Source: Oryzomicrobium sp. (GTDB taxonomy: Bacteria; Pseudomonadota; Gammaproteobacteria; Burkholderiales; Rhodocyclaceae). Taken from it: 64,000 nucleotides of DNA. The notes below the pieces were generated by a model. It did no database searches. It was not told the origin of the DNA and saw only the letters and a list, made by a program, of their open reading frames with translations. How positions within the stretch are numbered: position 1 is the first letter of the stretch; each line of letters starts with the position of its first letter. Shown here one piece after another: positions 52,267-64,000 of the stretch. The stretch lies in the NCBI RefSeq assembly GCF_021287045.1, contig NZ_JAJTBG010000002.1, forward strand, positions 62,001 through 126,000, given 5' to 3'. Position numbers and translations under genes: made by a program.

Positions 52267-53100
52267 TCAGGCCGCCTCTTCTTCCTGGCGGCGGCGCAGG
52301 CTGAAGGTCGGCCAGTTCCAACTCATGCCCCAGGCGTAGAAGGCGATGAACATCATCACGTCGAGGAAGCTGCCGAACAGCAGGTAGAAGATGGGTAGGA
52401 ACAGCAGGCTGAGGTGCCACAGCAGCACCGTGTGCAGGGCGAACTGGAAGGGCAGGGCCAGGGCGAAGTAGGCCAGCACCAGCGCGGTCAGGGCCAGCTT
52501 CTGGTGCAGCGGAAAGTTGAACACGTAGTAGGTGAAGCCGAAGATCCAGGGCACCAGGAACATCAGGATCAGCCCCATCGCCAGCCCGCTGAACAGGTAG
52601 GAGCCCAGGCCGTGGGGGAAGGAAGCCGGCACCAGGGCGAAATACACCAGGGCGGTGGCATGGATCAGCACCGCCGCCCGGATGGCGTAGATCAGGGGCA
52701 GCAGGCGGACCGGCGGGATCAGCTTGGTGGACAACCACAGCAGCACGCAGCCGATGGCGCTGATCCACCATTGCAGTTGGGTCGGGGCGCCGGCATACAG
52801 CTCGATGCGCGGCAGCCACACCGTGGCCACCACCAGGTCGAAGGGGGCGGCCACCAGGCCGCCGGGAAAGTCCGTGGCGGCGAACCAGAATTTCAGCACA
52901 GCGAACCAGAACGGCACGATCTCTTCGATCGACAGCAGCAGCAGCAGGTTGAAGACCAGCGGCAGCAGCAGGGCGATCAGCAGGTTCCCCTTGTGCAGGG
53001 AGACGTGGTAGATCGCCCGGTGCAGCTGGATACGCCGGCCGCCGAAGCCCTTCGAGCGGATGGCCTCGATGCGCGTTTGCAGGTCCTGGTCCCGGTCCAT
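52267..53100 (-). CDS. Polytopic membrane protein of the exopolysaccharide operon
   Basis: A 277-residue protein starting at ATG 53100, four bases after the stop of the outer-membrane barrel gene. A basic cytoplasmic N-terminus (about 45 residues) is followed by six or seven predicted membrane helices (LLIALLLPLVFNLLLLLSI, LQWWISAIGCVLLWLSTKLI, YLFSGLAMGLILMFLVPWI, LALTALVLAYFALALPFQF, HLSLLFLPIFYLLFGSFLDV) and a short Arg/Glu-rich tail. I do not recognise a family. As the last gene of the operon it may be an accessory inner-membrane component of polymer synthesis or export. Confidence 0.8.
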   Translation of the reverse strand: MDRDQDLQTRIEAIRSKGFGGRRIQLHRAIYHVSLHKGNLLIALLLPLVFNLLLLLSIEEIVPFWFAVLKFWFAATDFPGGLVAAPFDLVVATVWLPRIELYAGAPTQLQWWISAIGCVLLWLSTKLIPPVRLLPLIYAIRAAVLIHATALVYFALVPASFPHGLGSYLFSGLAMGLILMFLVPWIFGFTYYVFNFPLHQKLALTALVLAYFALALPFQFALHTVLLWHLSLLFLPIFYLLFGSFLDVMMFIAFYAWGMSWNWPTFSLRRRQEEEAA

Positions 53101-53104
53101 GGCG

Positions 53105-54154
53105 TCAGAAGTCCTTGAACAGGCTGAACTCGCCGCCCAGCCGGCGGTAGTAGGGGTTGCTGTACTCGCCCACCCGGGCCTGGAAGCCCCAGTCGCGGCC
53201 GACCCATTCGCGCCAGGTGAGCAGGGTGTCGTGGCTGGGGAAGTTGGCGAGGATGTTGTCGCCACTGCCCACCAGCTGGTAGCCCTCCTGGCCCTGGGCG
53301 AAGCGCAGGGAGATGAAGCGTTCCTTGTCGCGGCCGTAGGTCACCGCCACGTTGTAGTAGTCGGCGAAGACGCTGCCCGGATCGCTGCGGTTGATACGCA
53401 CGCCGCCCTCGATCACCCAGGGGCCGTCGAAGTAGTAGGCGGCGTTGAGCAGCACGGCCAGGTCCCGGTGCTCGTCCTTGGCCTTGATCGAGGACAGGCC
53501 CACGCCGATCACCAGGTTGCGCGGTTCGAGGAACTTGCGGTTGATCACCACGTCGCCCCGGTAACGCGGCTGGAAGAAGCCGCCGTTGCTGGTGGCCAGG
53601 GAGGTGGACACGAACCAGTCGTCGTTGATGACGTGGGTGTTGCCGACCACGAACAGGAGGCCCCGGTCGCCAAACTGCTGGAGGTCGGCCACTTCGCCGG
53701 TCCAGGTGTTCTTGGGGTCCGAGGCGTACACGCCGCGCACGAACTGGCTGTTCCAGTTCTGGTAGCCGGCGGTGAGGGAGTTGAAACCGAAGCCGGCCTC
53801 GATGGTGCCCTTGGGTACGAACGGCTCCGGCGCTTCCGGCTCTCCCGGAGCTTCCGGCTCTCCCGGGGGCCCCGGGGGCCCCGGAGGGCCCGGGGGCCCG
53901 GGTGGGCCGGGCGGGCCGGGTTCGTCCTCGCCCGGCGCGGCGGGGGCTTCACCGGCGGCCGGTTCGGCCGGGGTGGTGGCCGGGGCCGGCGTCGCGGGGG
54001 ACGCCAGGAAAGGCGCATCGGCGCTGGAGTTCAGAGGTGCGGCGGGAACGTTGACGGCCATTTCGGGCGCGGTATCCGGCTCGGCGGACCAGACGGCGCC
54101 TGCGGTGGCGCCGAGGATCAGGCTCAGACCGAGGCGGGAGAGACGGCGGGGCAT
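53105..54154 (-). CDS. YaiO-type outer-membrane beta-barrel with collagen-like linker
   Basis: A 349-residue protein. Signal peptide about 1-24 (LGLSLILGATAGAVWSA), an Ala/Pro-rich segment, then a run of Gly-Pro-Pro triplets at residues 79-98 and PEAPGEPEAPEPF. The remaining about 235 residues are alternating hydrophobic/aromatic strands ending in an aromatic residue (LGGEFSLFKDF), as in an outer-membrane barrel. GGVRINRSDPGSVFADYY and VTYGRDKERFISLRFAQG resemble the YaiO family, which in E. coli sits beside a glycosyltransferase and a deacetylase. It is likely the export pore of the operon. Its start overlaps the epimerase gene by 31 bp. Confidence 0.82.
   Translation of the reverse strand: MPRRLSRLGLSLILGATAGAVWSAEPDTAPEMAVNVPAAPLNSSADAPFLASPATPAPATTPAEPAAGEAPAAPGEDEPGPPGPPGPPGPPGPPGPPGEPEAPGEPEAPEPFVPKGTIEAGFGFNSLTAGYQNWNSQFVRGVYASDPKNTWTGEVADLQQFGDRGLLFVVGNTHVINDDWFVSTSLATSNGGFFQPRYRGDVVINRKFLEPRNLVIGVGLSSIKAKDEHRDLAVLLNAAYYFDGPWVIEGGVRINRSDPGSVFADYYNVAVTYGRDKERFISLRFAQGQEGYQLVGSGDNILANFPSHDTLLTWREWVGRDWGFQARVGEYSNPYYRRLGGEFSLFKDF
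53861..53920 (-). repeat. Gly-Pro-Pro coding repeat
   Basis: Sixty bp of near-perfect 9-bp-like GC repeats encode about six consecutive Gly-Pro-Pro triplets in the outer-membrane barrel protein. The tract is slippage-prone, so triplet number could vary between strains without changing the frame. Confidence 0.75.
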
Positions 54155-55323
54155 ATGTTTTTATGGTGGATGAAATGGTTGGAAAGGAGGGTGGCGATGC
54201 GCTGGCCGGCCAGCCCGTCGCCGAAGGGGTTGATGGCCTCGCGCATGGCGGCGGCCAGGGCCGGGCGGGTGGCCAGCTCGCGCACCGCGGCGGTCACCAC
54301 GGCCCGGTCGGTGCCCACCAGCCGGCCGGCGCCGGCCTCGATCAGCTCGGGGCGCTCGGTGGTCTCGCGCAGCACCAGGATCGGAGTATGCACCGCGGCG
54401 GCTTCTTCCTGAATGCCACCGGAATCGGTGAGCACCAGCCAGGCACGGTGCAGCAGCCACATCAGGGCGGCATAGCCCATCGGCTGGGTGAGGAAGAGGC
54501 GGCCGGCGGCTTCGGCCGGCAAGTCGCCCAGGGCGCCGTGCACCACCTCCTGGACCCGAGGATTGGCGTGCACCGGCCAGACCACCAGCAGATCGGGGGA
54601 TTCGAGCAGCAGGTCGCGCACCGCCCCGGCCACGCTGGCCAGGGGGCCGTTGAGGTTCTCGCGCCGGTGCGAGGTCACCAGCACCAAGCGGCGGCCGGGC
54701 AGCAGGCCGGGCAGGTCGGCCAGGTCCTGCTGGAGTTCGGGAATGGCTTCCTGCCTGGCGCCGTCCATTTTCCCGGCGAGTTGCACCGCATCCACGATGG
54801 TGTTGCCCACCATGTGGATGGCCTGCTCGGCGATGCCCTCGCGCAGCAGGTTGGCCCGGGCCTGGGCGGTGGGGGAGAAGTGCCAGGTGGCGAGACGGCC
54901 GATCAGTTCCCGGTTCTTCTCCTCGGGGAAGGGGTCGTACATGCAGTGGGAGCGCAGGCCGGCCTCGACGTGACCCACCGGCACCTGCTGGTAGAAGGCC
55001 GCCAGGGCCGCCATCAGGGCGCTGGAGGTGTCGCCGTGCACCAGCACGGCGGCCGGGGCACTGTCTTCCAGGATCCGGCCGATCTTGTCCACCATCAGGG
55101 CCGACAGGTGGGACAGGGTCTGGCGCTGCCGCTCCAGGTCCAGGCTGAGGGCCGGGCGCATGCCGAAGAAGTCGTACATGGGGTCGGCCATTTCCCGATG
55201 CTGGCCGGTGTGCAGCACCAGGGGCTCCAGGTCGGTGGCGCGCAGGGCATGGTAAACCGGGGCCATCTTGATGATCTCCGGCCGGGTGCCCATGCACAAC
55301 AGGATGGTATTGGACAGTTTCAT
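54124..55323 (-). CDS. wecB: UDP-N-acetylglucosamine 2-epimerase (non-hydrolysing)
   Basis: A 399-residue GT-B-fold epimerase. MGTRPEIIKMAPV at residues 11-23, VLVHGDTSSALM, GHVEAGLRSHCMYDPFPEEKN, MVGNTIVDAV, VTSHRRENL and the C-terminal LTDSGGIQEEAAAV match the WecB family, with the catalytic acidic and His residues in place. It interconverts UDP-GlcNAc and UDP-ManNAc. The start overlaps the deacetylase stop (ATGA). Within this operon it probably supplies UDP-ManNAc to the synthase; WecB also serves enterobacterial-type antigens in other bacteria, but no such genes are here. Confidence 0.92.
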   Translation of the reverse strand: MKLSNTILLCMGTRPEIIKMAPVYHALRATDLEPLVLHTGQHREMADPMYDFFGMRPALSLDLERQRQTLSHLSALMVDKIGRILEDSAPAAVLVHGDTSSALMAALAAFYQQVPVGHVEAGLRSHCMYDPFPEEKNRELIGRLATWHFSPTAQARANLLREGIAEQAIHMVGNTIVDAVQLAGKMDGARQEAIPELQQDLADLPGLLPGRRLVLVTSHRRENLNGPLASVAGAVRDLLLESPDLLVVWPVHANPRVQEVVHGALGDLPAEAAGRLFLTQPMGYAALMWLLHRAWLVLTDSGGIQEEAAAVHTPILVLRETTERPELIEAGAGRLVGTDRAVVTAAVRELATRPALAAAMREAINPFGDGLAGQRIATLLSNHFIHHKNICPAVSPASV

Positions 55324-57188
55324 GGCAGTGCCTTGCGGGTGAATTCGAATTCGAAGTTGCGGCCGTGGCCGGCGACGACGCGCCAGGCGCGACCGATGTC
55401 CTCGACCCGGCCGTCGCCCACCGTCACGCGGGGCTGCTGCCCGCCGGCCTTGGGCACCTCCCAGGCCAGGTCGACCAGGTCGGTGGGGTGGGTGGCCTTG
55501 AGGGTCAGCCGGTCGCCGCTGCCGACGTAGGACCAGACCGCCTGCTCGCGGCGGTTGAGGAAGTCGGCGGCGGCGGACATGGTGGTCCAGCGGAAGCGGC
55601 CGGCGGCGTGCAGTTCCCGGGTATGGGCGAACAGGGCGCGCAGGGCCTCGGGGTAACGGTGGAAGCCGTGGGGGTGGGAGTAGATGGTGCGCAGGGTGCC
55701 GGTGTCGGCGGTGAAGTCGGCGGCGGAGGTGAGCCAGTTCTTGACCGTGTCTTCGCTCAATTCCTCTTCGTCGAACTCCTCGAAGGCGGCCATGTTGCCC
55801 AGGATGAGCACCGGGAAGGACCAGATGTGCTTGGCGTTGAGACGGCCGTTGCGGTAGCTGCGGGTGGGGGCCATGCCGGTGTTGCCGGTGAAGTAGTAGG
55901 CCACCATGTTGTGGGCCTCCAGCCACTCGGTCACCCATTCGGGCTGGTTGCCCAGAGGCGCCGAATACTCCCGGGACGGCCGCCCGGCGATGGCCGAGAC
56001 CGCCTTCTCGTTCATCTCCAGGTACTTGACCATCTCATCCTTGTTGGTGTCGTTCACCCGGCCGCCGAAGTAGTTGTGGATCCAGCCGCCGTGGTCCCCC
56101 AGGGCGTCGCCCCGGTCCCGGAACCGGGCCACCCACTTGCGCGCCTGGGCGTTGTGCTCCAGGTCGAGGCCCTGCTTGTCGCCGAAGGCCGCCATGTCCG
56201 GGCCGGCGGTGAAGTGGATCGAGAACGGTCCCTGGTCCAGGGCGCCGAAGCTTTCCAGGCGCTCGAACTCGGGGGTCGAGGCGTTGGAGTCCACGTGCCA
56301 GTTGAACACCAGGCCGCCGATGCCGTCGGCGGTGGCCTTCAGCACCGGCAGGCCGAGCCGGTCGAACACCAGGTGGTGCAGAAAGGCGTGCAGCAGCGTC
56401 CCGTCGGTCTGGCCCTTGAGGTAGCCGATGGGGGTGTTGACGAACAGCACCCCGCCTTCGCCGAGGCGGCGGTAGCCGGCGGCCACCCCGCCCGAGTCGC
56501 TGGCGAGCAGTGCCTCGCCGGTGTAGGCGCCGGAGGTGGGCAGGATGGGGTAGAGCAGGGCGCCGTACTGGTAGCCGGTGATGGCGTAGGTCTTGCCATG
56601 GAGCAGTTCCTCGGCCGGGGGCGAGGACATCTCCATGGTCTTGCCCGGGGGCAGCAGGAGCCGGCGCCCCCCGGCGTCGGTGACGAACAGGGGGCCCCGC
56701 TCCACTCCACCGGCGCCGAAGCGCTCCCGGTCCGGGCCGTAGCGCACGCCCACCAGGCCGGACAGGGGAGAAGCCGCCCCCGCCGGCACGTCGCTGCTGA
56801 TCACGGTGCCGCCGTCGTAGACCACCATCAGCTGGCCGCCCCGGGCGGCGAACTGCTCCAGGCGGTTGACCACCACCGGGGTGATCTGACGGTGCAGGTT
56901 GTCCGGCAGGATCGCCGCGCTGCCGCGGTCGCTCGTTTCGGGACGGAGCAGGAAGTCCGAATCGCTGATGGTGCGCATCGGAATGCCTTCTTCCTTGGCC
57001 GCATCCAGCCAGATGCTCACCGCCGGCGCGGCCGGGTCCTGGCCTTCGGGCAGGATCAGGTAGACGGTGTGCTCGGCCATCGCGGCATCGTTGCGCTGCC
57101 CCCACCAGGAATAAAGGGCTCCCAGGGCGACGAACAGCAGCGCCCAGGGCACGACGGCAAAGAGGAAGCGTTTCAGCGCAGCGAACAT
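55320..57188 (-). CDS. Membrane-anchored polysaccharide deacetylase-like protein
   Basis: A 622-residue protein with an N-terminal transmembrane anchor (about 9-27) and a periplasmic body. Residues about 40-290 resemble a Rossmann/glutamine-amidotransferase-like domain (AARGGQLMVVYDGGTVISSDV, GEGGVLFVNTPIGYL). From about 290 the polysaccharide-deacetylase fold is suggested by NWHVDSNAS (H298, D300), GDHGGWIHNYF (H366, H371), SREYSAPLGNQPEWV and SHPHGFHRYP. It would remove acetyl groups from an N-acetylated polymer in the periplasm. The motifs deviate from classical CE4 (TFDDG), so activity is inferred. It overlaps the glycosidase gene by 16 bp. Confidence 0.78.
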   Translation of the reverse strand: MFAALKRFLFAVVPWALLFVALGALYSWWGQRNDAAMAEHTVYLILPEGQDPAAPAVSIWLDAAKEEGIPMRTISDSDFLLRPETSDRGSAAILPDNLHRQITPVVVNRLEQFAARGGQLMVVYDGGTVISSDVPAGAASPLSGLVGVRYGPDRERFGAGGVERGPLFVTDAGGRRLLLPPGKTMEMSSPPAEELLHGKTYAITGYQYGALLYPILPTSGAYTGEALLASDSGGVAAGYRRLGEGGVLFVNTPIGYLKGQTDGTLLHAFLHHLVFDRLGLPVLKATADGIGGLVFNWHVDSNASTPEFERLESFGALDQGPFSIHFTAGPDMAAFGDKQGLDLEHNAQARKWVARFRDRGDALGDHGGWIHNYFGGRVNDTNKDEMVKYLEMNEKAVSAIAGRPSREYSAPLGNQPEWVTEWLEAHNMVAYYFTGNTGMAPTRSYRNGRLNAKHIWSFPVLILGNMAAFEEFDEEELSEDTVKNWLTSAADFTADTGTLRTIYSHPHGFHRYPEALRALFAHTRELHAAGRFRWTTMSAAADFLNRREQAVWSYVGSGDRLTLKATHPTDLVDLAWEVPKAGGQQPRVTVGDGRVEDIGRAWRVVAGHGRNFEFEFTRKALP

Positions 57189-58189
57189 GGCGTATTGGGA
57201 TCGACGTGGGTGGACAGCCCTTGCCACAGGGCGTCCTCAAGAACATTCCAGCGGGCGCCGTGGCGCAGCGCGGCGGTCTGGCGCACCCAGCAGGCGACAG
57301 TGGGGGCATCGCCCTGCTGTTGGGCCACCTGGGCCATCAGCCCCCAGGGATAGTCATCCGCCGACAGGGTCAACCAGGCGTGGCGGTAACGGCGCATCCA
57401 CTCCCGGTAACCGATGGCGGGCTTTTTCATCAGGCTGGGCAGGCCGTGCAGCAGCGGGTAGAGCTGGGCCACCAGGTGGGGGTAGAAGGCCCCGTCGGCC
57501 TCGTCCTCGCTGGTGTGGCGCAGCAGGCCGTCGGCCTTGGGCGGGAACAGGCCGCCCAGGCGGCGCTCCACCAGGTCGGCCTGCTGGCGCAGGCGGCGGG
57601 CGCCGGCGGCATCGCCCCAGGCGGCCTGCTTGCCGGCGACGACGCGCAGGGCGGCCACCACCTCGCAATTATCCATGAGCAGGGCGACCCGCTGGGTTGG
57701 CGAGATCACGTAGCCCCCCAGGCGAGGATCGTACAGCCGAGCCAGGGCCGCCCGGCTCTGCTCGGCGCTGTTGTGCCAGGCGGGGGGCAGGCCCTCGGCC
57801 GGGGCGGCGACGTGGAGCAGCTCCAGCCACAGGGCGAGCAGGGAATCGTCGGCGTCGGCCTCCTGGCATTGCAGCCAAGCGCCGTCCTCGGCGATGCAGT
57901 AGCGGCCAAACAGGCCGTCGGCGGTGGGCCGGGCCAGCATCCAGTCGATCCAGCGGCCAGCCGGGGCGGCGATGTCCAGCCCCAGCTCCCGGGCCGCCAG
58001 AAGGGCCTTCAGGGCGAAGTAGGGATCGACGAAATCGCCCTGGTAGTGGGTGGTGATCGCCCCGTCGTCGCGCTGGTAGCCAGCCAGGTCGAGGCTGGCG
58101 CCCCGGGCCAGCCAGGGGGCGGCCGCCAGGGCCAGGCCGAGCACGAGGCCGCCCAGGCGGGCGGCCAGAGGGCGGGAGCGGCGGTTCAT
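57173..58189 (-). CDS. Periplasmic (alpha/alpha)-barrel glycosidase-like protein
   Basis: A 338-residue secreted protein. The signal peptide spans about 1-31 (LGGLVLGLALAAAPWLARGA). The mature part is helical with repeated Trp/Asp-rich segments: GDFVDPYFALKALLAAR, GRYCIAEDGAWLQCQEADAD, and the acidic cluster ADADDS at 111-116, which recalls the catalytic Asp region of GH8-like cellulases such as BcsZ. I therefore read it as a six-hairpin glycoside hydrolase acting on the nascent polymer, a part found in most synthase-dependent systems. Exact GH family is uncertain. The start overlaps the preceding stop by ATGA. Confidence 0.72.
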   Translation of the reverse strand: MNRRSRPLAARLGGLVLGLALAAAPWLARGASLDLAGYQRDDGAITTHYQGDFVDPYFALKALLAARELGLDIAAPAGRWIDWMLARPTADGLFGRYCIAEDGAWLQCQEADADDSLLALWLELLHVAAPAEGLPPAWHNSAEQSRAALARLYDPRLGGYVISPTQRVALLMDNCEVVAALRVVAGKQAAWGDAAGARRLRQQADLVERRLGGLFPPKADGLLRHTSEDEADGAFYPHLVAQLYPLLHGLPSLMKKPAIGYREWMRRYRHAWLTLSADDYPWGLMAQVAQQQGDAPTVACWVRQTAALRHGARWNVLEDALWQGLSTHVDPNTPCSLR

Positions 58190-59271
58190 GCCAGCACCTC
58201 GCCCTCTTCCCGGGCCCAGATCGAGCCGTACACCAGAGCGCCGGGGGCGATGCGGATACGCGGCGCGGTGATGGTGGTGGGGTGGCCGGGGGCGCCGACC
58301 ACGCAGCCGGGGCCGATTTCCACCACGTCTTCGGCGACGATCGGGCCCATGGCCTGACTGTCCCGCTCCATGACCACCCGGGCGCCCGCCACCACGCTGC
58401 CGTGGACCCGGCTGCCGCTATCGAGCAGCACGTCCCGGTTGCCCTTGATCGAGCCGGCAACGAAGGCACCGGCGCCGACCAGAAGGTCGGCGGATGCGAT
58501 CAGGTGGCCCCGGTGCCAGGTGCCGCCGGCCACGGCCAGGTCCCCGCGCACCAGCCAGCGCCCCATGTCGCCGGCCTGGAGCCGGGGAGGGGCCTCCATG
58601 GCCTCACGGCGGCGCAGGCGCTGCCGGGGCGAGGCCGGGGCGGGCCGGACCAGGGGAGTGAATTCGATCCGCGGGGCATACATGCGGCCGAAGCGGCAGC
58701 CCGGGCCCAGCAGCAGGCGCTGCCCCGCCGAGGCCCGGCCGTAGAGCCGGCTGCCCTCGCCCGCCACCGCCACGCCGTCGGCATGGAGCCAACGCAGGAC
58801 GTAGGTTTCCGCTCCCAGGCGGATGTCGCCCTTGGCCAGCACGGCACGCAGCACCAGGCCCGAACCACCGCGCAGGGAGCCCTCGGCATAGACCTCGCCG
58901 GAAAAGATGTGGTCGTTGGGCAACATCAGGTCGCCGGCCCCCAGGACCAGGCGGGTGGTTTCCCGGGCGTCGGCTTCCCGGCCTTGCAGGCGCGGGGCGC
59001 GGTCGGCCGGTACGGCGATCACCTGGGTGCCGTTGGACAGGGCGGCCTCCACCTGGGTCCCGTCAGTCCCGGCCCGGCCCAGGTAGGGGCGCAGCTGGGC
59101 ATCGACGAAACGCTGGAAACCGGCGGCGAAGTGGCCGATGTGGCCGCCGTATTCGCGCACCACGTTGAGGGGCGCGGCGTCGCTCGGATGCAGCCATTCC
59201 AGGGCGGCCGGGGCGAGCGGCAGCAGGAACAGGACGGCGCAGCTGAGCGCCAGAAGCAGCAACCCGATCAT
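58186..59271 (-). CDS. Membrane-anchored beta-helix (bactofilin/hexapeptide-like) protein
   Basis: A 361-residue protein starting at ATG 59271, two bases after the synthase stop. One N-terminal transmembrane helix (about 2-26, LLLLALSCAVLFLLPLAPAAL), a short spacer, then two blocks of repeating short strands: GSLRGGSGLVLRAVLAKGDI and later RGDLAVAGGTWHRGHLIASA, SIKGNRDVLLDSGSRVHGSV, VVAGARVVMERDSQAMGPI. This is the hexapeptide/bactofilin (polymer-forming cytoskeletal) style. It has no obvious catalytic residue. It could scaffold the synthase or be an acetyltransferase-like relative. Confidence 0.72.
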   Translation of the reverse strand: MIGLLLLALSCAVLFLLPLAPAALEWLHPSDAAPLNVVREYGGHIGHFAAGFQRFVDAQLRPYLGRAGTDGTQVEAALSNGTQVIAVPADRAPRLQGREADARETTRLVLGAGDLMLPNDHIFSGEVYAEGSLRGGSGLVLRAVLAKGDIRLGAETYVLRWLHADGVAVAGEGSRLYGRASAGQRLLLGPGCRFGRMYAPRIEFTPLVRPAPASPRQRLRRREAMEAPPRLQAGDMGRWLVRGDLAVAGGTWHRGHLIASADLLVGAGAFVAGSIKGNRDVLLDSGSRVHGSVVAGARVVMERDSQAMGPIVAEDVVEIGPGCVVGAPGHPTTITAPRIRIAPGALVYGSIWAREEGEVLA

Positions 59272-59273
59272 GA

Positions 59274-60923
59274 TCAGCCCACGGAGCCCGTCTGGTGGTG
59301 CGGCGTGGCTCCGGCCGGCAGATGCACGGGGACGGGGGTGGCCCCCGGCTGGCGGTAGCGCACGGTCTTGTCCCACACCAGGCTGCGGCGCAGCAACCAG
59401 TCGAAGAAGAACTGGTTCCAGGTGGCCCGGGCGATCGACAACAGGCTGATCAGGAAGCCGAACAGGTTGAGGGGCAGCAGGCGGATGCGGTTGCGGTTGC
59501 CGTCCAGGTGCACCGCCGCCGAGATCTCGAAGTAGGCGGCGAAGTTGCCCAGGGCCCCGTAGCCCATCAGGGCGAACATGGCCAGGGCGCCGGACAGCCA
59601 CTGGTTGGTGGTGCAGTAGAACAGGAAGATGGCCAGCATCCAGCCGAACAGCAGCAGGGGGGACATGGCATAGACCCCGAGCAGGAGCAGGCCGTCCATC
59701 CGCTCGGCGAAGCTCACGCCCCGGTTGAACAGCAGCCGCCCGGCGTAGCGCAGCGCCGCCTGGTTGTGGCCCTTGGCCCAGCGCATGATCTGGCGCACCC
59801 GCACCGGCCAGCTCTCGGGCACTTCCTCGTAACACTCGGAACGGTTCTGGTAGACAGTTTTCCAACCCGACAGGAGCAGGCGGTAGGTCAGGTCGGTGTC
59901 CTCGGCCAGGGCGTCGTCGCGCCAGCCGCCGATGCCTTCCAGGGCGATGCGGCGCACCCCGCCCACGGTGCCGCCGTACTGGGGCACCATGCGCAGGTTC
60001 ATGCGCGCCTGCTGGTCCACCTGGTAGCCGCCGGAGCGCTCCAGGTCGAGCAGGCGGGTGAGCAGGTTGCTGCCGGTGTTGAGGGGCACCACCCGGCCCA
60101 TCACCGCGCCGGTCTCCGGATCGAGGAAGGGGGCCACCAGTTGCTTGATCAGGCCTTTCCCGGGCACGTAGTCGGCATCGAAGATGATGATGATGTCGCT
60201 CTCCACCAGTTCGGTGGCGTCCTTCAGCGCCGCCGACTTGCCCGGCTTGCCGCCGCTGCGGTGGAAGGGGGTGATGCGCCCCGGAAAGCGGACCACGTAG
60301 CTGTCGATGATCTCCCGGGTGCGGTCGGTGGAACGGTCGTTCACCGGCATCAGGCGGATGCGCTCGGGCGGATAGTCCACGTCGAGCAGGGCTTCCAGGG
60401 AGTTGGCGATCACCGCCTCTTCGTTGTGGGCGGCGATGAACACGGTCACCGTGGGCCAGTCCGCCGTGTCGATGTCCACGTAGGGGTGCCGCTGCCGGCC
60501 GAACAGCCGATTGAAGGCGAAGTAGTAGTGGCGCAGGGTGTAGACGACGATCAGCGCCAGGACAAAGAACAGCAGCACCAGAGCCGTCACCGCCGTCTCG
60601 TTGGAAATCTGCGTCAGCCGGGAACTGACGAAGCCGGCATCCGGCGGCAGGGGTTGCCACTCGCTCACCGGCTTGATCCGCAGCACCGCCTCGGGAGGCA
60701 CGGCATCGCCGTAGTAGGTGGGCGGCTCCGGCCGCACCGCGACGTCCAGGGGCACCACCGGCGCCGGAACCTCGCCACCCATGGCCTCGGCGGTGGCGCC
60801 ACCGGCCGGCGCCTCGCCCACGCCCTCGCCTTCAGCCGCGCGCAGCTGGCCGGCGGCCAGCAGCAGCCCTCCTGCGACGAGGCAGGACAAAAACGGGCGC
60901 TTCAGGAAAGAAAAGGGGGACAT
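59274..60923 (-). CDS. Processive GT2 exopolysaccharide synthase
   Basis: A 549-residue family-2 glycosyltransferase. ATG 60923 gives a signal-like N-terminus (1-30, SCLVAGGLLLAAGQLRAA), then about 80 periplasmic residues and TM1 at about 111-131. The cytoplasmic catalytic domain has NDRSTDRT (Asp196), the DxD motif FDADYVPG (249-251), AEDTDL (acid/base, 341-342) and QIMRW (378-382), the processive-synthase signature. Three or four more membrane helices follow. This is the layout of BcsA/PgaC-type polymerising synthases, without a PilZ domain. The periplasmic N-terminal extension is unusual. It is the first gene of the seven-gene operon. Confidence 0.9.
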   Translation of the reverse strand: MSPFSFLKRPFLSCLVAGGLLLAAGQLRAAEGEGVGEAPAGGATAEAMGGEVPAPVVPLDVAVRPEPPTYYGDAVPPEAVLRIKPVSEWQPLPPDAGFVSSRLTQISNETAVTALVLLFFVLALIVVYTLRHYYFAFNRLFGRQRHPYVDIDTADWPTVTVFIAAHNEEAVIANSLEALLDVDYPPERIRLMPVNDRSTDRTREIIDSYVVRFPGRITPFHRSGGKPGKSAALKDATELVESDIIIIFDADYVPGKGLIKQLVAPFLDPETGAVMGRVVPLNTGSNLLTRLLDLERSGGYQVDQQARMNLRMVPQYGGTVGGVRRIALEGIGGWRDDALAEDTDLTYRLLLSGWKTVYQNRSECYEEVPESWPVRVRQIMRWAKGHNQAALRYAGRLLFNRGVSFAERMDGLLLLGVYAMSPLLLFGWMLAIFLFYCTTNQWLSGALAMFALMGYGALGNFAAYFEISAAVHLDGNRNRIRLLPLNLFGFLISLLSIARATWNQFFFDWLLRRSLVWDKTVRYRQPGATPVPVHLPAGATPHHQTGSVG

Positions 60924-60937
60924 GGGGCACGCCAACA

Positions 60938-60958
60938 CTTGGGGAGTGGAACCCCAAG
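60938..60958 (-). promoter_or_regulatory. Hairpin at the start of the synthase gene
   Basis: CTTGGGG (60938-60944) and CCCCAAG (60952-60958) are perfect arms with a 7-nt loop, ending 15 bp upstream of the chosen ATG (60923). It covers the place where a ribosome site would be, and I see no clear Shine-Dalgarno. Confidence 0.45.
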
Positions 60959-60989
60959 CTTAAGCGCCCCGAGCTCCTGGAAGGAATGA

Positions 60990-61017
60990 AATATTTTGCA
61001 CAGCAGGCAATATTTTG
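60990..61017 (-). repeat. Paired direct repeat upstream of the EPS operon
   Basis: CAAAATATT occurs twice in the same orientation on the minus strand (60998-60990 and 61017-61009), start-to-start 19 bp, 65-95 bp upstream of the synthase ATG. Two identical AT-rich 9-mers in this genome are more than expected by composition. They look like a tandem regulator site. Confidence 0.45.
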
Positions 61018-61025
61018 GGCGAAAT

Positions 61026-61044
61026 AAAAAACAACGTGTTTTTT
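61026..61044. repeat. A/T hairpin
   Basis: AAAAAACA (61026-61033) and TGTTTTTT (61037-61044) are perfect arms around ACG. It could be a weak bidirectional terminator or a bent-DNA operator. Confidence 0.45.
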
Positions 61045-61226
61045 CTCACAAAACATATAGCAAACCCCAGCAATCACAAGGGAATGCAAGCTTTTGACAG
61101 GCTCGAAGAAAAAATAAAAATTCTCTTTGGAAAATAACGCCATCACCCATAGGAGGGCTTTTCGGCACCCTTAGTTCCTAGCTTGAGGGGTTTCTTGGAC
61201 AAATCGTGAGAAATGTCACCACCGAC

Positions 61227-61243
61227 CAATTTGTATCAAATTG
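61227..61243. promoter_or_regulatory. 17-bp palindromic operator candidate
   Basis: CAATTTG (61227-61233) and CAAATTG (61237-61243) are perfect complements around TAT. It sits in the middle of the shared intergenic region and does not match the NrdR or FNR patterns. Confidence 0.45.
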
Positions 61244-61343
61244 CTAACGATTCCCCTGCCATGGCAACACCGGCACAGCATCATCGCCCCCCAGGCCGCA
61301 ACCATCCCAAAGACATTGCAACTTTTCATTTCAGCAAAAACAA

Positions 61344-61359
61344 ACACAACATGTAGTAG
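61344..61359 (+). promoter_or_regulatory. NrdR box 1
   Basis: ACACAACATGTAGTAG matches the NrdR consensus acaCwAtATaTwGtgt at the conserved core positions. It starts 31 bp before the second box. Confidence 0.72.
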
Positions 61360-61374
61360 AAGCACAATGCAAAA

Positions 61375-61390
61375 ACACTAGATGTAGTGA
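61375..61390 (+). promoter_or_regulatory. NrdR box 2
   Basis: ACACTAGATGTAGTGA matches the NrdR consensus well. Two boxes 31 bp apart (three helical turns) is the arrangement NrdR uses on ribonucleotide reductase promoters. Confidence 0.8.
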
Positions 61391-61435
61391 AATTTCGTTG
61401 ACGACGCCGTTTCCGGTCCGGTACATTGCAGACCA

Positions 61436-61640
61436 TGATGGTTCCCCCTTCCGGGGGATGAAACGGGAATTCGGAGCGGTGGGCTGCGGCCCCTCGCGCA
61501 AGCCGAAGCTGCCCCCGCAACTGTGAGCGGAGAGCGTGCCCCGACGGCCACTGGAGCAAGATGCCTCCGGGAAGGCCGGGGCCGGCGCCAACCAGGCGCC
61601 ACGCGACGACCCGCAAGCCAGGAGACCGGCCATCGCTGCA
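61436..61640 (+). ncRNA. Cobalamin (B12) riboswitch
   Basis: The conserved segments occur in order: CCCCCGCAACTGTGAGCGG (61512-61530), GCCACTGG, GGGAAGGC, and the B12 box AGCCAGGAGACCGGCC (61616-61631). This is the standard core of the cobalamin aptamer, here about 200 nt upstream of nrdA on the same strand. Upstream pairing elements begin near 61436. High B12 would repress the downstream class Ia reductase, so the cell would rely on a B12-dependent (class II) enzyme when B12 is available. That second enzyme is not in the window. Confidence 0.93.
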
Positions 61641-61842
61641 ACGCCGCCTCACCGGAGTCGCCAGAATCACCATCGACTCACCGCCGGGCGGCAACGTTTT
61701 CACTTGGGGCGGGGCGCCCCGGGAAAGCGCGGCGACCCCGGCGGGGCCGTCCGGCATGGGCGCATGGGTTCGGCCGCAACGGCCGCCAGGCACCGGCCTC
61801 CGCGCGCCCCCAGGCTCCCCGGCCCGTCACGGGGAGATCCGC

Positions 61843-64000
61843 ATGCACCATCCTTCCAGCGCCATCGAGCAGGGCCACGGCCCGGCCACCAGCCCTTCCG
61901 CGCCCTTGCCCACCCTCGAAACCGGCGCCGAGCTGCCGGGCAGCCCGGCCTACACCCCCGGCCTGGGGGTGAGCGTCGACGCCCGCAGCTTCGAGGTAAT
62001 CCGCCGCAACGGCGCGGTGGTGGCCTTCAACCCAGACAAGATCACCGTGGCCCTGACCAAGGCCTTCCTGGCGGTGGAAGGCCACCAGGGCGCCACCTCG
62101 GCCCGCGTCCGCGACGTGGTGGGCGAACTCACCGCCACCGTGGTCCAGGCGCTCACCCGGCGCCTGCCCGGCGGCGGCACGGTGCACATCGAGGACATCC
62201 AGGACCAGGTGGAACTGGCCCTGATGCGTTCCGGCTCCCACGACGTGGCCCGGGCCTACGTGCTCTACCGGGAGAAACGGGCCGCCGAGCGGGCCGCGGC
62301 ACGGGCGGCCCAGGCCACCGACGAGCGCGTCGACGAGCCGGTGTTGCACGTGGTGGACGGCGAGACCCGCCGCCCCCTGGACCGGGCCGCCCTGCTGGCC
62401 ACGGTGCAGGAAGCCTGCGCCGACTTGGCCGACGTTTCCGCGGAAACCGTGCTGGAACACGCCCTGCACAACCTCTACGACGGCGTGCCGGTGGTGGCGG
62501 TGCGTCAGTCCCTGGTGCTGGCCGCCCGCACCCTGATCGAGCGGGAACCGGCCTACAGCAAGGTTTCCGCCCGGCTGCTGCTCGATTCGATCCGCGTCGA
62601 GGTGCTCGGCCAGCCCACCACCCACGGCGCCATGACCGCCGGCTACGCCGAGTATTTCCCCCGGGCCATCCGCCGCGGCATCGCCGCCGAGCTGCTCGAC
62701 CCGCGCCTGGCCGAATTCGACCTGGAGGTGCTGGGCCGCGCTCTGGTGGCCGACCGGGACCTGCAGTTCGACTACCTGGGTCTGCAAACCCTCTACGACC
62801 GCTACTTCCTGCACGAGGACGAGCAGCGCATCGAGCTGCCGCAAACCTTCTTCATGCGCGTGGCGATGGGCCTGGCCCTGAACGAGATCGACCGGGAAGC
62901 CCGGGCCATCGAGTTCTACAACCTGCTCTCGTCCTTCGACTTCATGAGCAGCACGCCGACCCTGTTCAACAGCGGCACCCGCCATTCCCAGCTGTCGTCC
63001 TGCTACCTGACCACCGTCTCCGACGACCTGGAAGGCATCTACCAGTCGGTCAAGGAAAACGCCCTGCTGCAAAAGTACGCCGGCGGCCTGGGCAACGACT
63101 GGACCCCGGTTCGCGCCCTGGGCAGCCGCATCAAGGGCACCAACGGCAAGAGCCAGGGGGTGATCCCCTTCCTCAAGGTGGTCAACGACACCGCCGTGGC
63201 GGTGAACCAGGGCGGCAAGCGCAAGGGGGCGGTGTGCGCCTACCTGGAGAGCTGGCACCTGGACATCGAGGAATTCCTCGAACTGCGCAAGAACACCGGC
63301 GACGAGCGCCGCCGCACCCACGACATGAACACGGCCAACTGGATTCCCGACCTGTTCATGCAGCGGGTGATGAACAACCAGGACTGGACCCTGTTCTCCC
63401 CCAGCGACACGCCCGATCTGCACGACAAGTACGGCAAAGCCTTCGCGGCCGCCTACACCGCCTACGAGGCCAAGGCCGACCGGGGCGAGATCAAGCTGTT
63501 CAAGCGCATTCCCGCCGTGCAGCTGTGGCGCAAGATGCTGACCATGCTGTTCGAGACCGGCCATCCCTGGATCACCTTCAAGGACGCCTGCAACCTGCGC
63601 TCGCCCCAGCAGCACGTGGGCACCGTGCACAGCTCCAACCTGTGCACCGAGATCACCCTCAACACCTCCGAGACCGAGACCGCGGTGTGCAACCTGGGCT
63701 CGGTGAACCTGCCGGCCCACCTGGTGCAGGTGGACGGCCAGTGGACCCTGGACCAGGCCAAGCTCAAGCGCACCATCCGCACCGCCATGCGCCTGCTCGA
63801 CAACGTGGTGGACATCAACTTCTACGCCACCCCCAAGGCGCGCAACGCCAACGTGCGGCACCGCCCCGTCGGTCTGGGCATCATGGGCTTTTCCAACTGC
63901 CTCCAGGAAATGGGCCTGCCCTACGCCTCGGACGAGGCAGTGGTCTTCGCCGACCGCTCCATGGAAGCGGTGTGCTACCACGCCTACTGGGCCTCCACCG
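61843..64000 (+). CDS. nrdA: Class Ia ribonucleoside-diphosphate reductase, alpha subunit (truncated at window end)
   Basis: An open frame from ATG 61843 (GGGGAG ribosome site) to the window edge, 719 codons visible. A Gly/Pro-rich start is followed by the ATP-cone (FEVIRRNGAVVAFNPDKITV, about 50-140). The catalytic barrel then has SSCYLTTVSDDLEGIYQS (first redox Cys), GGLGNDWTPVR, SNLCTEITLN (radical Cys, Asn and Glu) and ETAVCNLGSVNLPAH (second redox Cys). These mark an NrdA that reduces ribonucleoside diphosphates with a small NrdB subunit, expected downstream. Expression is under two signals seen in the leader: NrdR boxes and a B12 riboswitch. Confidence 0.94.
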   Translation, partial: MHHPSSAIEQGHGPATSPSAPLPTLETGAELPGSPAYTPGLGVSVDARSFEVIRRNGAVVAFNPDKITVALTKAFLAVEGHQGATSARVRDVVGELTATVVQALTRRLPGGGTVHIEDIQDQVELALMRSGSHDVARAYVLYREKRAAERAAARAAQATDERVDEPVLHVVDGETRRPLDRAALLATVQEACADLADVSAETVLEHALHNLYDGVPVVAVRQSLVLAARTLIEREPAYSKVSARLLLDSIRVEVLGQPTTHGAMTAGYAEYFPRAIRRGIAAELLDPRLAEFDLEVLGRALVADRDLQFDYLGLQTLYDRYFLHEDEQRIELPQTFFMRVAMGLALNEIDREARAIEFYNLLSSFDFMSSTPTLFNSGTRHSQLSSCYLTTVSDDLEGIYQSVKENALLQKYAGGLGNDWTPVRALGSRIKGTNGKSQGVIPFLKVVNDTAVAVNQGGKRKGAVCAYLESWHLDIEEFLELRKNTGDERRRTHDMNTANWIPDLFMQRVMNNQDWTLFSPSDTPDLHDKYGKAFAAAYTAYEAKADRGEIKLFKRIPAVQLWRKMLTMLFETGHPWITFKDACNLRSPQQHVGTVHSSNLCTEITLNTSETETAVCNLGSVNLPAHLVQVDGQWTLDQAKLKRTIRTAMRLLDNVVDINFYATPKARNANVRHRPVGLGIMGFSNCLQEMGLPYASDEAVVFADRSMEAVCYHAYWAST

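Follow-up and report, generated by a model that had tools for sequence, protein, structure and literature searches.

A seven-gene operon of Oryzomicrobium sp. that may encode an unnamed kind of synthase-dependent exopolysaccharide machine

Systems for synthase-dependent exopolysaccharides (EPS) combine a processive family 2 glycosyltransferase (GT2), modifying and hydrolytic enzymes and an outer-membrane barrel, all encoded in a single operon. A periplasmic scaffold of tetratricopeptide repeats (TPR) of the BcsC, PgaA, PelB or AlgK type is typical of these systems, although not found in every one, and a receptor domain for cyclic di-GMP (c-di-GMP) is common but not universal in their operons. 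NGR, the phage N4 receptor of E. coli, was reportedly added to the synthase-dependent polymers in 2021. The five identified by 2020 were cellulose, acetylated cellulose, poly-N-acetylglucosamine (PNAG), alginate and Pel (PMC7112194; all papers cited by such identifiers are drawn on through portions of their text). Here we describe an operon at positions 52267-60923 of a 64,000-nucleotide stretch of the Oryzomicrobium sp. genome (contig NZ_JAJTBG010000002.1, positions 62,001 to 126,000), hereafter the window. Calls of open reading frames and start positions delimited seven tightly packed minus-strand genes (g1 to g7, Table 1), which share with the above systems the enzymes, the barrel and the single-operon layout. 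Beyond these parts they encode an epimerase of the WecB type, a protein resembling bactofilins and a polytopic protein that belongs to no known family. The operon very probably encodes a machine for a secreted polysaccharide, and on balance we consider it a complete synthase-dependent EPS machine of an unnamed kind, for which a model based on N-acetylmannosamine (ManNAc) is proposed.

From g1 to g7, neighbouring genes were found to be separated by a 2 bp gap, by overlaps of 4, 16, 4 and 31 bp and by a 4 bp gap, which reproduces the spacing of a few bases between seven co-directional genes claimed in an earlier note on this DNA. The processive GT2 with DxD, ED and QxxRW motifs described there was recognized in g1, where DAD (residues 249-251), ED (341-342) and QIMRW (378-382) were located and where hydropathy indicated transmembrane (TM)-like segments at about residues 105-137, 409-439 and 480-500. 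The g1 protein matched PF13641 with 107.3 bits and PF00535 with 84.5 bits, and the curated Pfam and NCBIfam cut-offs were passed by the GT2, WecB and YaiO proteins. Family scans, models and hydropathy agree with the other parts listed in that note (beta-helix, deacetylase, epimerase, barrel and polytopic protein), and an AlphaFold2 model with a moderate fold match underlies the reading of g3 as glycosidase-like. Its sugar-nucleotide epimerase could be narrowed to a WecB-type UDP-N-acetylglucosamine (UDP-GlcNAc) 2-epimerase (TIGR00236), a hint at UDP-ManNAc that the note had left unused. The gene content, the motifs, the modelled folds and the conservation of the set were established directly.

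Table 1 Features of the operon and of its upstream region in the window.
Feature	Position	Strand	Length or remark
g1, processive GT2 polysaccharide synthase	59274-60923	-	549 aa
g2, bactofilin-like beta-helix protein, membrane-anchored	58186-59271	-	361 aa
g3, (alpha/alpha)-barrel protein, glycosidase-like	57173-58189	-	338 aa
g4, NodB-fold deacetylase, membrane-anchored, three-domain	55320-57188	-	622 aa
g5, WecB-type non-hydrolysing UDP-GlcNAc 2-epimerase	54124-55323	-	399 aa
g6, YaiO-family outer-membrane beta-barrel	53105-54154	-	349 aa
g7, polytopic membrane protein without known family	52267-53100	-	277 aa
33-bp element, inverted repeat AAATATT-N13-AATATTT	60983-61015	-	candidate operator or promoter element

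To examine its occurrence elsewhere, genome contigs were scanned with the deacetylase (g4) alignment, which gave 106 confirmed relatives, and 80 loci were kept, 57 of them with at least 21,000 bases and the other 23 shorter, being ended by contig ends. All seven families were present in 51 of the 80 loci (43 of the 57 long ones), confirming that the block co-occurs across taxa; since the loci were retrieved through the deacetylase, this co-occurrence is conditional on it. That this set is found again in other genomes makes its composition more than chance. Six families were found in ten long loci (eight without g3 and two without wecB), four in L071, and the deacetylase alone in L066, L079 and L088. 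By family, the GT2 occurred in 54 of the 57, g2 in 54, g3 in 45, g4 in 57, WecB in 52, YaiO in 53 and g7 in 53. These counts come from later profiles iterated on hits from the same loci, with bit-score thresholds set by us. First-round profiles, which derived from three genomes, found seven families in 34 of the 57 loci, six in 19, three in one and the deacetylase alone in three, the lower count being due to g3 having been missed in nine Comamonadaceae/Sphaerotilaceae-type loci. Where a family occurred twice at a locus, the best-scoring copy was used for per-family counts and gene orders. L004, L005, L008 and L088 belong to one genome (G052), and L001 and L009 are the window's own.

In the 53 loci with both GT2 and g7, the block had a median span of 8.75 kb and showed 14 gene orders, with that of the window in two. 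The GT2 and g2 genes were adjacent in all 53 (once reversed), and those of YaiO and g7 in 52. The module recurred in many bacteria of soil and water and was distributed in Beta- and Gammaproteobacteria and Acidobacteriota, its named hosts being Cupriavidus, Ralstonia, Burkholderia, Collimonas, Variovorax, Sphaerotilus, Leptothrix, Methylococcaceae and soil Acidobacteriota. All seven genes were present in L006, a sister species, and in L007, a genome from another family of the order, whose wecB has shifted to the front of the block. Among 349 genomes of the order, the g7 profile matched six (the window's own included), while the g4 profile matched five at more than 600 bits and gave 14 short matches below 25 bits to ordinary deacetylases. 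g7 was present in all five genomes with full-length g4, in one of the 344 others and in none of the 14 with weak g4 matches, and the distance between the two genes was about 2.3 kb or less in four of the five genomes holding both. Single-protein searches, which are less sensitive than the profile search, matched four of 61 relatives (the genome of the window, that of its congener and two from other families), none of 35 other genera of the window's family and none of 273 other genomes in a sample of the class. Judged from these searches, the system looks rare within the window's own family. On plasmids, g4 was found in one of 72,556 records at E ≤ 1e-5 (Cupriavidus sp. P-10).

The operon was then compared with described loci. 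Membership in the cellulose (bcs) and PNAG (pga) loci was rejected: g1 reached 118.9 bits with the PgaC model, its best NCBIfam score, against a cut-off of 422.3, and 73.9 bits with the CelA model against 699.1, and no BcsB family was found in the seven proteins (Pfam, E ≤ 0.1, which also applies to the MshEN, TPR and c-di-GMP receptor domains below). On this point the scans agree with the earlier note, which held the set to be neither bcs nor pga. For pel and alg, the comparison drew on the seven proteins' matches in the general scans of Pfam and NCBIfam.

E. coli NfrB is a GT2 synthase that depends genetically on WecB, with UDP-ManNAc proposed as its donor (PMC8669469, PMC8669472), and species that have no other WecB carry wecB next to nfrB in their nfr loci (PMC8669469). 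With the NGR/NfrBA-WecB system of E. coli the operon shares a GT2 together with WecB as well as an outer-membrane component, which would fit a member of the nfr system that has lost its c-di-GMP domain. Such a membership is nevertheless highly improbable and was rejected. Unlike NGR, the operon also encodes a deacetylase and proteins of the glycosidase-like, bactofilin-like and polytopic kinds; g1 is closer to E. coli BcsA (86.4 bits) and YaiP (85.5 bits) than to NfrB (28.5 bits) and lacks an MshEN domain; and none of the seven proteins matched E. coli NfrA or YbcH in BLASTP or hidden Markov model searches. In a GT2 tree, NfrB took a very long branch outside the rows of the block with its position unsure, and the placement of the other E. 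coli rows and of L071 and L089, also on very long branches, is equally unsure. The 14 Acidobacteriota rows formed one group with a support of 88/95.

In E. coli yaiP-yaiX-yaiS-yaiO, where an insertion sequence disrupts the yaiX of K-12, a GT2 likewise lies near a barrel that falls in the YaiO family models. The likeness to yaiP-yaiS-yaiO drawn previously turned out to be thin. On one side, g6 passed the YaiO family models (TIGR04390, 148.9 bits, cut-off 32; PF19413, 101.4 bits, cut-off 23.9), and the GT2 was 26% identical to YaiP over 320 aa; on the other, no match was obtained between g6 and E. coli YaiO compared directly, or between g4 and YaiS. The Rubrivivax/Thauera floc cluster was rejected as a different locus, with genes for asparagine synthase, for several GT2 and of the Wzx type (PMC3684757). 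A 2026 comparison of Sphaerotilus and Leptothrix names wza/wzb/wzc, calls the sheath-formation genes not well understood and, in the portions of its text drawn on, does not name the block (PMC13386937). No locus of such content, name or product was found among the matches listed in the open-licence PMC literature, with subscription papers and preprints outside this scope, and for that literature and those matches the operon can still be called probably undescribed, as the earlier note put it.

The sugar of the predicted polymer is suggested by the epimerase. The g5 protein scored 403 bits with TIGR00236, the WecB equivalog (cut-off 210.15), was its sole match in the window's genome and has kept the motif blocks GTRPEIIK, HGDT, HVEAGLR and HRREN, which we take to be catalytic. 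Enzymes of the WecB type convert UDP-GlcNAc into UDP-ManNAc, as established for E. coli WecB, and the presence of one in the operon thus points to UDP-ManNAc. WecB occurred in the same neighbourhood at 52 of the 57 loci, and for the two six-family blocks missing only wecB (L050 and L063), a WecB was found on another contig in both genomes. By analogy with E. coli NfrB, which needs WecB and for which UDP-ManNAc is the proposed donor, g1 would polymerise ManNAc, and ManNAc as the main sugar is slightly favoured.

In the following account of how the operon works, the identity of the sugar, the sequence of steps and all enzymatic activities are inferred. In the cytoplasm, g5 would convert UDP-GlcNAc into UDP-ManNAc, which g1 would polymerise while moving the chain across the inner membrane, probably with g7 as a membrane partner. 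The membrane-anchored g4 would then take off some N-acetyl groups and leave free amines, g3 could clip chains or clear misdirected polymer, the beta-helix of g2 could act as a scaffold, and the YaiO-family barrel of g6 would be the outer-membrane exit. The roles of g2 as scaffold and of g7 as synthase partner are the simplest guesses. Deacetylation to free amines is known from PgaB acting on PNAG and PelA acting on Pel. The product would be a ManNAc-containing polymer that is partly de-N-acetylated; that it is a homopolymer of ManNAc is conceivable, and we put this forward tentatively.

A secreted synthase-dependent polymer of GlcNAc, or one of alternating GlcNAc and ManNAc made by a bifunctional GT2 with WecB supplying part of the donors, is a rival that we consider unlikely yet worth weighing. 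The best NCBIfam score of g1, as given above, belongs to the PNAG synthase PgaC, and single GT2 synthases using two donors exist, hyaluronan synthase among them. For a pure GlcNAc polymer, the WecB found near the block in the majority of loci would be needless, a point that does not touch the alternating polymer.

The AlphaFold2 model of g4 (pLDDT 93.6) comprised a helix at residues 2-36, an alpha/beta domain resembling the trimerisation domain of GH42, a NodB-type domain at about 290-548 and a C-terminal beta domain at about 551-617. GH42/GH164 enzymes and the deacetylases 3qbu, 8t0j and 3rxz were among the best 50 of 574 Foldseek matches. In an alignment of the window protein with 52 of 85 locus rows, H298, H366, H371, H505 and P506 were invariant in all 53 rows and D300 nearly so, and H366 and H371 are predicted to bind metal. 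Polysacc_deac_1 (PF01522) was matched by 36 of the 53 aligned members at E ≤ 0.01 and Glyco_hydro_42M by 11. No firm relative was found when the g3, g4 and g7 proteins or profiles were searched against the Protein Data Bank (PDB) by sequence. An AXE1-type acetyl xylan esterase was considered as well and had no match in the window's genome.

Agd3 from Aspergillus is the founding CE18/CBM87 deacetylase, and Agd3-like deacetylases sit in uncharacterised bacterial EPS operons, of which the Gram-negative examples have Pel-like outer-membrane parts, unlike the operon of the window (PMC7229062). The g4 model has the same order of domains as Agd3 (alpha/beta, NodB-type, C-terminal beta), and 3QBU is the nearest solved deacetylase listed for both. 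In contrast, Agd3 gave no sequence match to g4 in the PDB searches and was not among the best 50 of 574 Foldseek matches. A kinship of g4 to Agd3 is accordingly offered as a lead. Five Sphaerotilus/Leptothrix loci (L053, L054, L057, L060 and L084) contained one or two additional copies of the deacetylase.

No Pfam or NCBIfam family was matched by the g3 protein of the window, whose AlphaFold2 model was a confident (alpha/alpha) barrel (pLDDT 92.7). Its closest PDB fold among the best 50 of 758 Foldseek matches was the endo-mannosidase MmpH (7qsj, E 2.8e-6). MmpH is a mycobacterial enzyme acting on methylmannose polysaccharide, with the acids D47 and D50 three residues apart and the glutamate base E262 (PMC9883506). 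In 42 aligned rows (41 of 59 locus rows plus the window protein), D112 and D115 of g3 were near-invariant and the C-terminal consensus was WNVxEE, and these may be equivalent to D47/D50 and E262 of MmpH, the acid pair being spaced by three residues in both. The MmpH case differs from that of g3 in its other polymer, the lack of a membrane system and a sequence identity of 14%. A signal peptide read by eye suggests that g3 is probably exported.

The g2 protein begins with a TM-like segment in its hydropathy profile (residues 1-27), and it scored 25.8 bits with PF04519 (Bactofilin), under the cut-off of 27.9; the family was matched by 15 of 17 aligned g2 members at E ≤ 0.01. For g7, several TM-like segments were indicated by hydropathy. 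No Pfam family was matched by any of its 19 members and no NCBIfam family by the window protein, the two NCBIfam matches in the alignment being at chance level in one member apiece, and its best PDB match by sequence or profile had an E-value of 0.9. The alignments took 16 of 64 locus rows for g2 and 18 of 67 for g7. In ten Burkholderia loci (L067-L070, L072, L073, L075, L078, L081 and L082), the bactofilin-like protein matched weakly and wecB lay on the opposite strand. The N-terminal linker of g6 contains a collagen-like (GPP)n run at residues 80-100 (window 53855-53917, minus strand); among 70 YaiO-family frames of other loci, at least six G-x-y repeats were found in the congener L006 only.

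The bactofilin-like protein also bears on a further rival, in which the GT2 is no polymer synthase and the operon serves to decorate or anchor a different glycan (O-antigen, sheath or cell-wall polymer), with the barrel exporting a modified oligosaccharide. Most known roles of bactofilins concern the cell wall and the cytoskeleton, and the five Sphaerotilus/Leptothrix loci named above come from sheath-forming bacteria, both of which would suit such a function. The GT2 however has QxxRW and several TM segments, like processive synthases, and Pfam detected none of the Wzx, Wzy, ABC or lipid-linked sugar transferase families among the seven proteins, so that we regard this alternative as quite improbable.

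Returning to the complete ManNAc-based machine, several results weigh against it. The seven proteins contain neither a TPR family nor a c-di-GMP receptor domain (PilZ, MshEN or similar). The g4 protein of the window scored 15.7 bits with PF01522, under the Pfam cut-off of 23.1, and its H366 and H371 are spaced as HxxxxH, unlike the HxxxH of CE18/Agd3 and CE4. The fold match of g3 to MmpH is moderate (TM-score 0.60, rmsd 7.1), and the best PDB sequence matches of the g3 profile are weak ones to terpene-cyclase-like (alpha/alpha) barrels (E 0.0055), for which reasons the term glycosidase is not certain for g3. The g1 protein is not close to NfrB, and the ManNAc substrate, the linkage and the product are themselves predicted. 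As for conservation, g3 was absent from 12 of the 57 loci, and the deacetylase stood without the block in three, one of which (L088) belongs to G052. In that genome g4 and a six-family block (L107, 9400-16157) are found on different contigs, and in G415 (L108, 7638-16079) the other six families are clustered without g4. These blocks indicate that deacetylation may be optional. The core thus consists of the GT2, g2, WecB, YaiO and g7, which g3 and g4 accompany often but not always.

If the proposed machine is real, a new matrix polymer would be produced by a widespread seven-part module, which would also add at least two proteins without a Pfam home in the window (g3 and g7) and an unusual deacetylase. 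A broader view, which seems somewhat unlikely at present, is that of a further class of synthase-dependent EPS beside cellulose, acetylated cellulose, PNAG, alginate, Pel and NGR, namely a cationic "polymannosamine" in the form of poly-ManNAc with part of its N-acetyl groups removed. In its machine the bactofilin-like beta-helix would replace the TPR scaffold, the synthase would be assisted by a new polytopic family, and the chain would be processed by new families of NodB-fold deacetylase and (alpha/alpha)-barrel glycosidase.

Regarding regulation, a GGDEF-motif gene is divergent from the block and adjoins it upstream of the GT2 in the same five Sphaerotilus/Leptothrix loci, and both GGDEF and EAL were confirmed by Pfam in the three tested (L054, L057 and L084). 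The GGDEF motif occurred in 11 of 84 scanned loci (L006-L089), at least one of these occurrences being due to chance (L021, inside the g3 frame). The GGDEF-type genes beside the five loci give a hint of c-di-GMP control. In the window, the region upstream of g1 (60924-61420) is GC-poor (0.46 compared with 0.68 for the window) and contains the 33-bp element of Table 1. This element is identical at 30 of 33 positions in the congener L006, in which the surrounding leader, the riboswitch part aside, has no comparable match. Allowing up to three mismatches, it has one site genome-wide, compared with zero in the control. Apart from a cobalamin switch on the other strand, no riboswitch above Rfam thresholds was found in the g1 leader, and the sole Rfam match at E ≤ 1 within 60900-61430 was a chance snoRNA. 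The cobalamin riboswitch (61422-61648, plus strand, 107 bits, E 8.3e-26) lies beyond the leader and belongs to the divergent gene. That gene is an open frame on the plus strand (61561-63999) that continues past the end of the window and by eye appears to encode the class I large subunit of ribonucleotide reductase; a B12 switch ahead of a reductase that does not depend on B12 would be an arrangement of a known kind.

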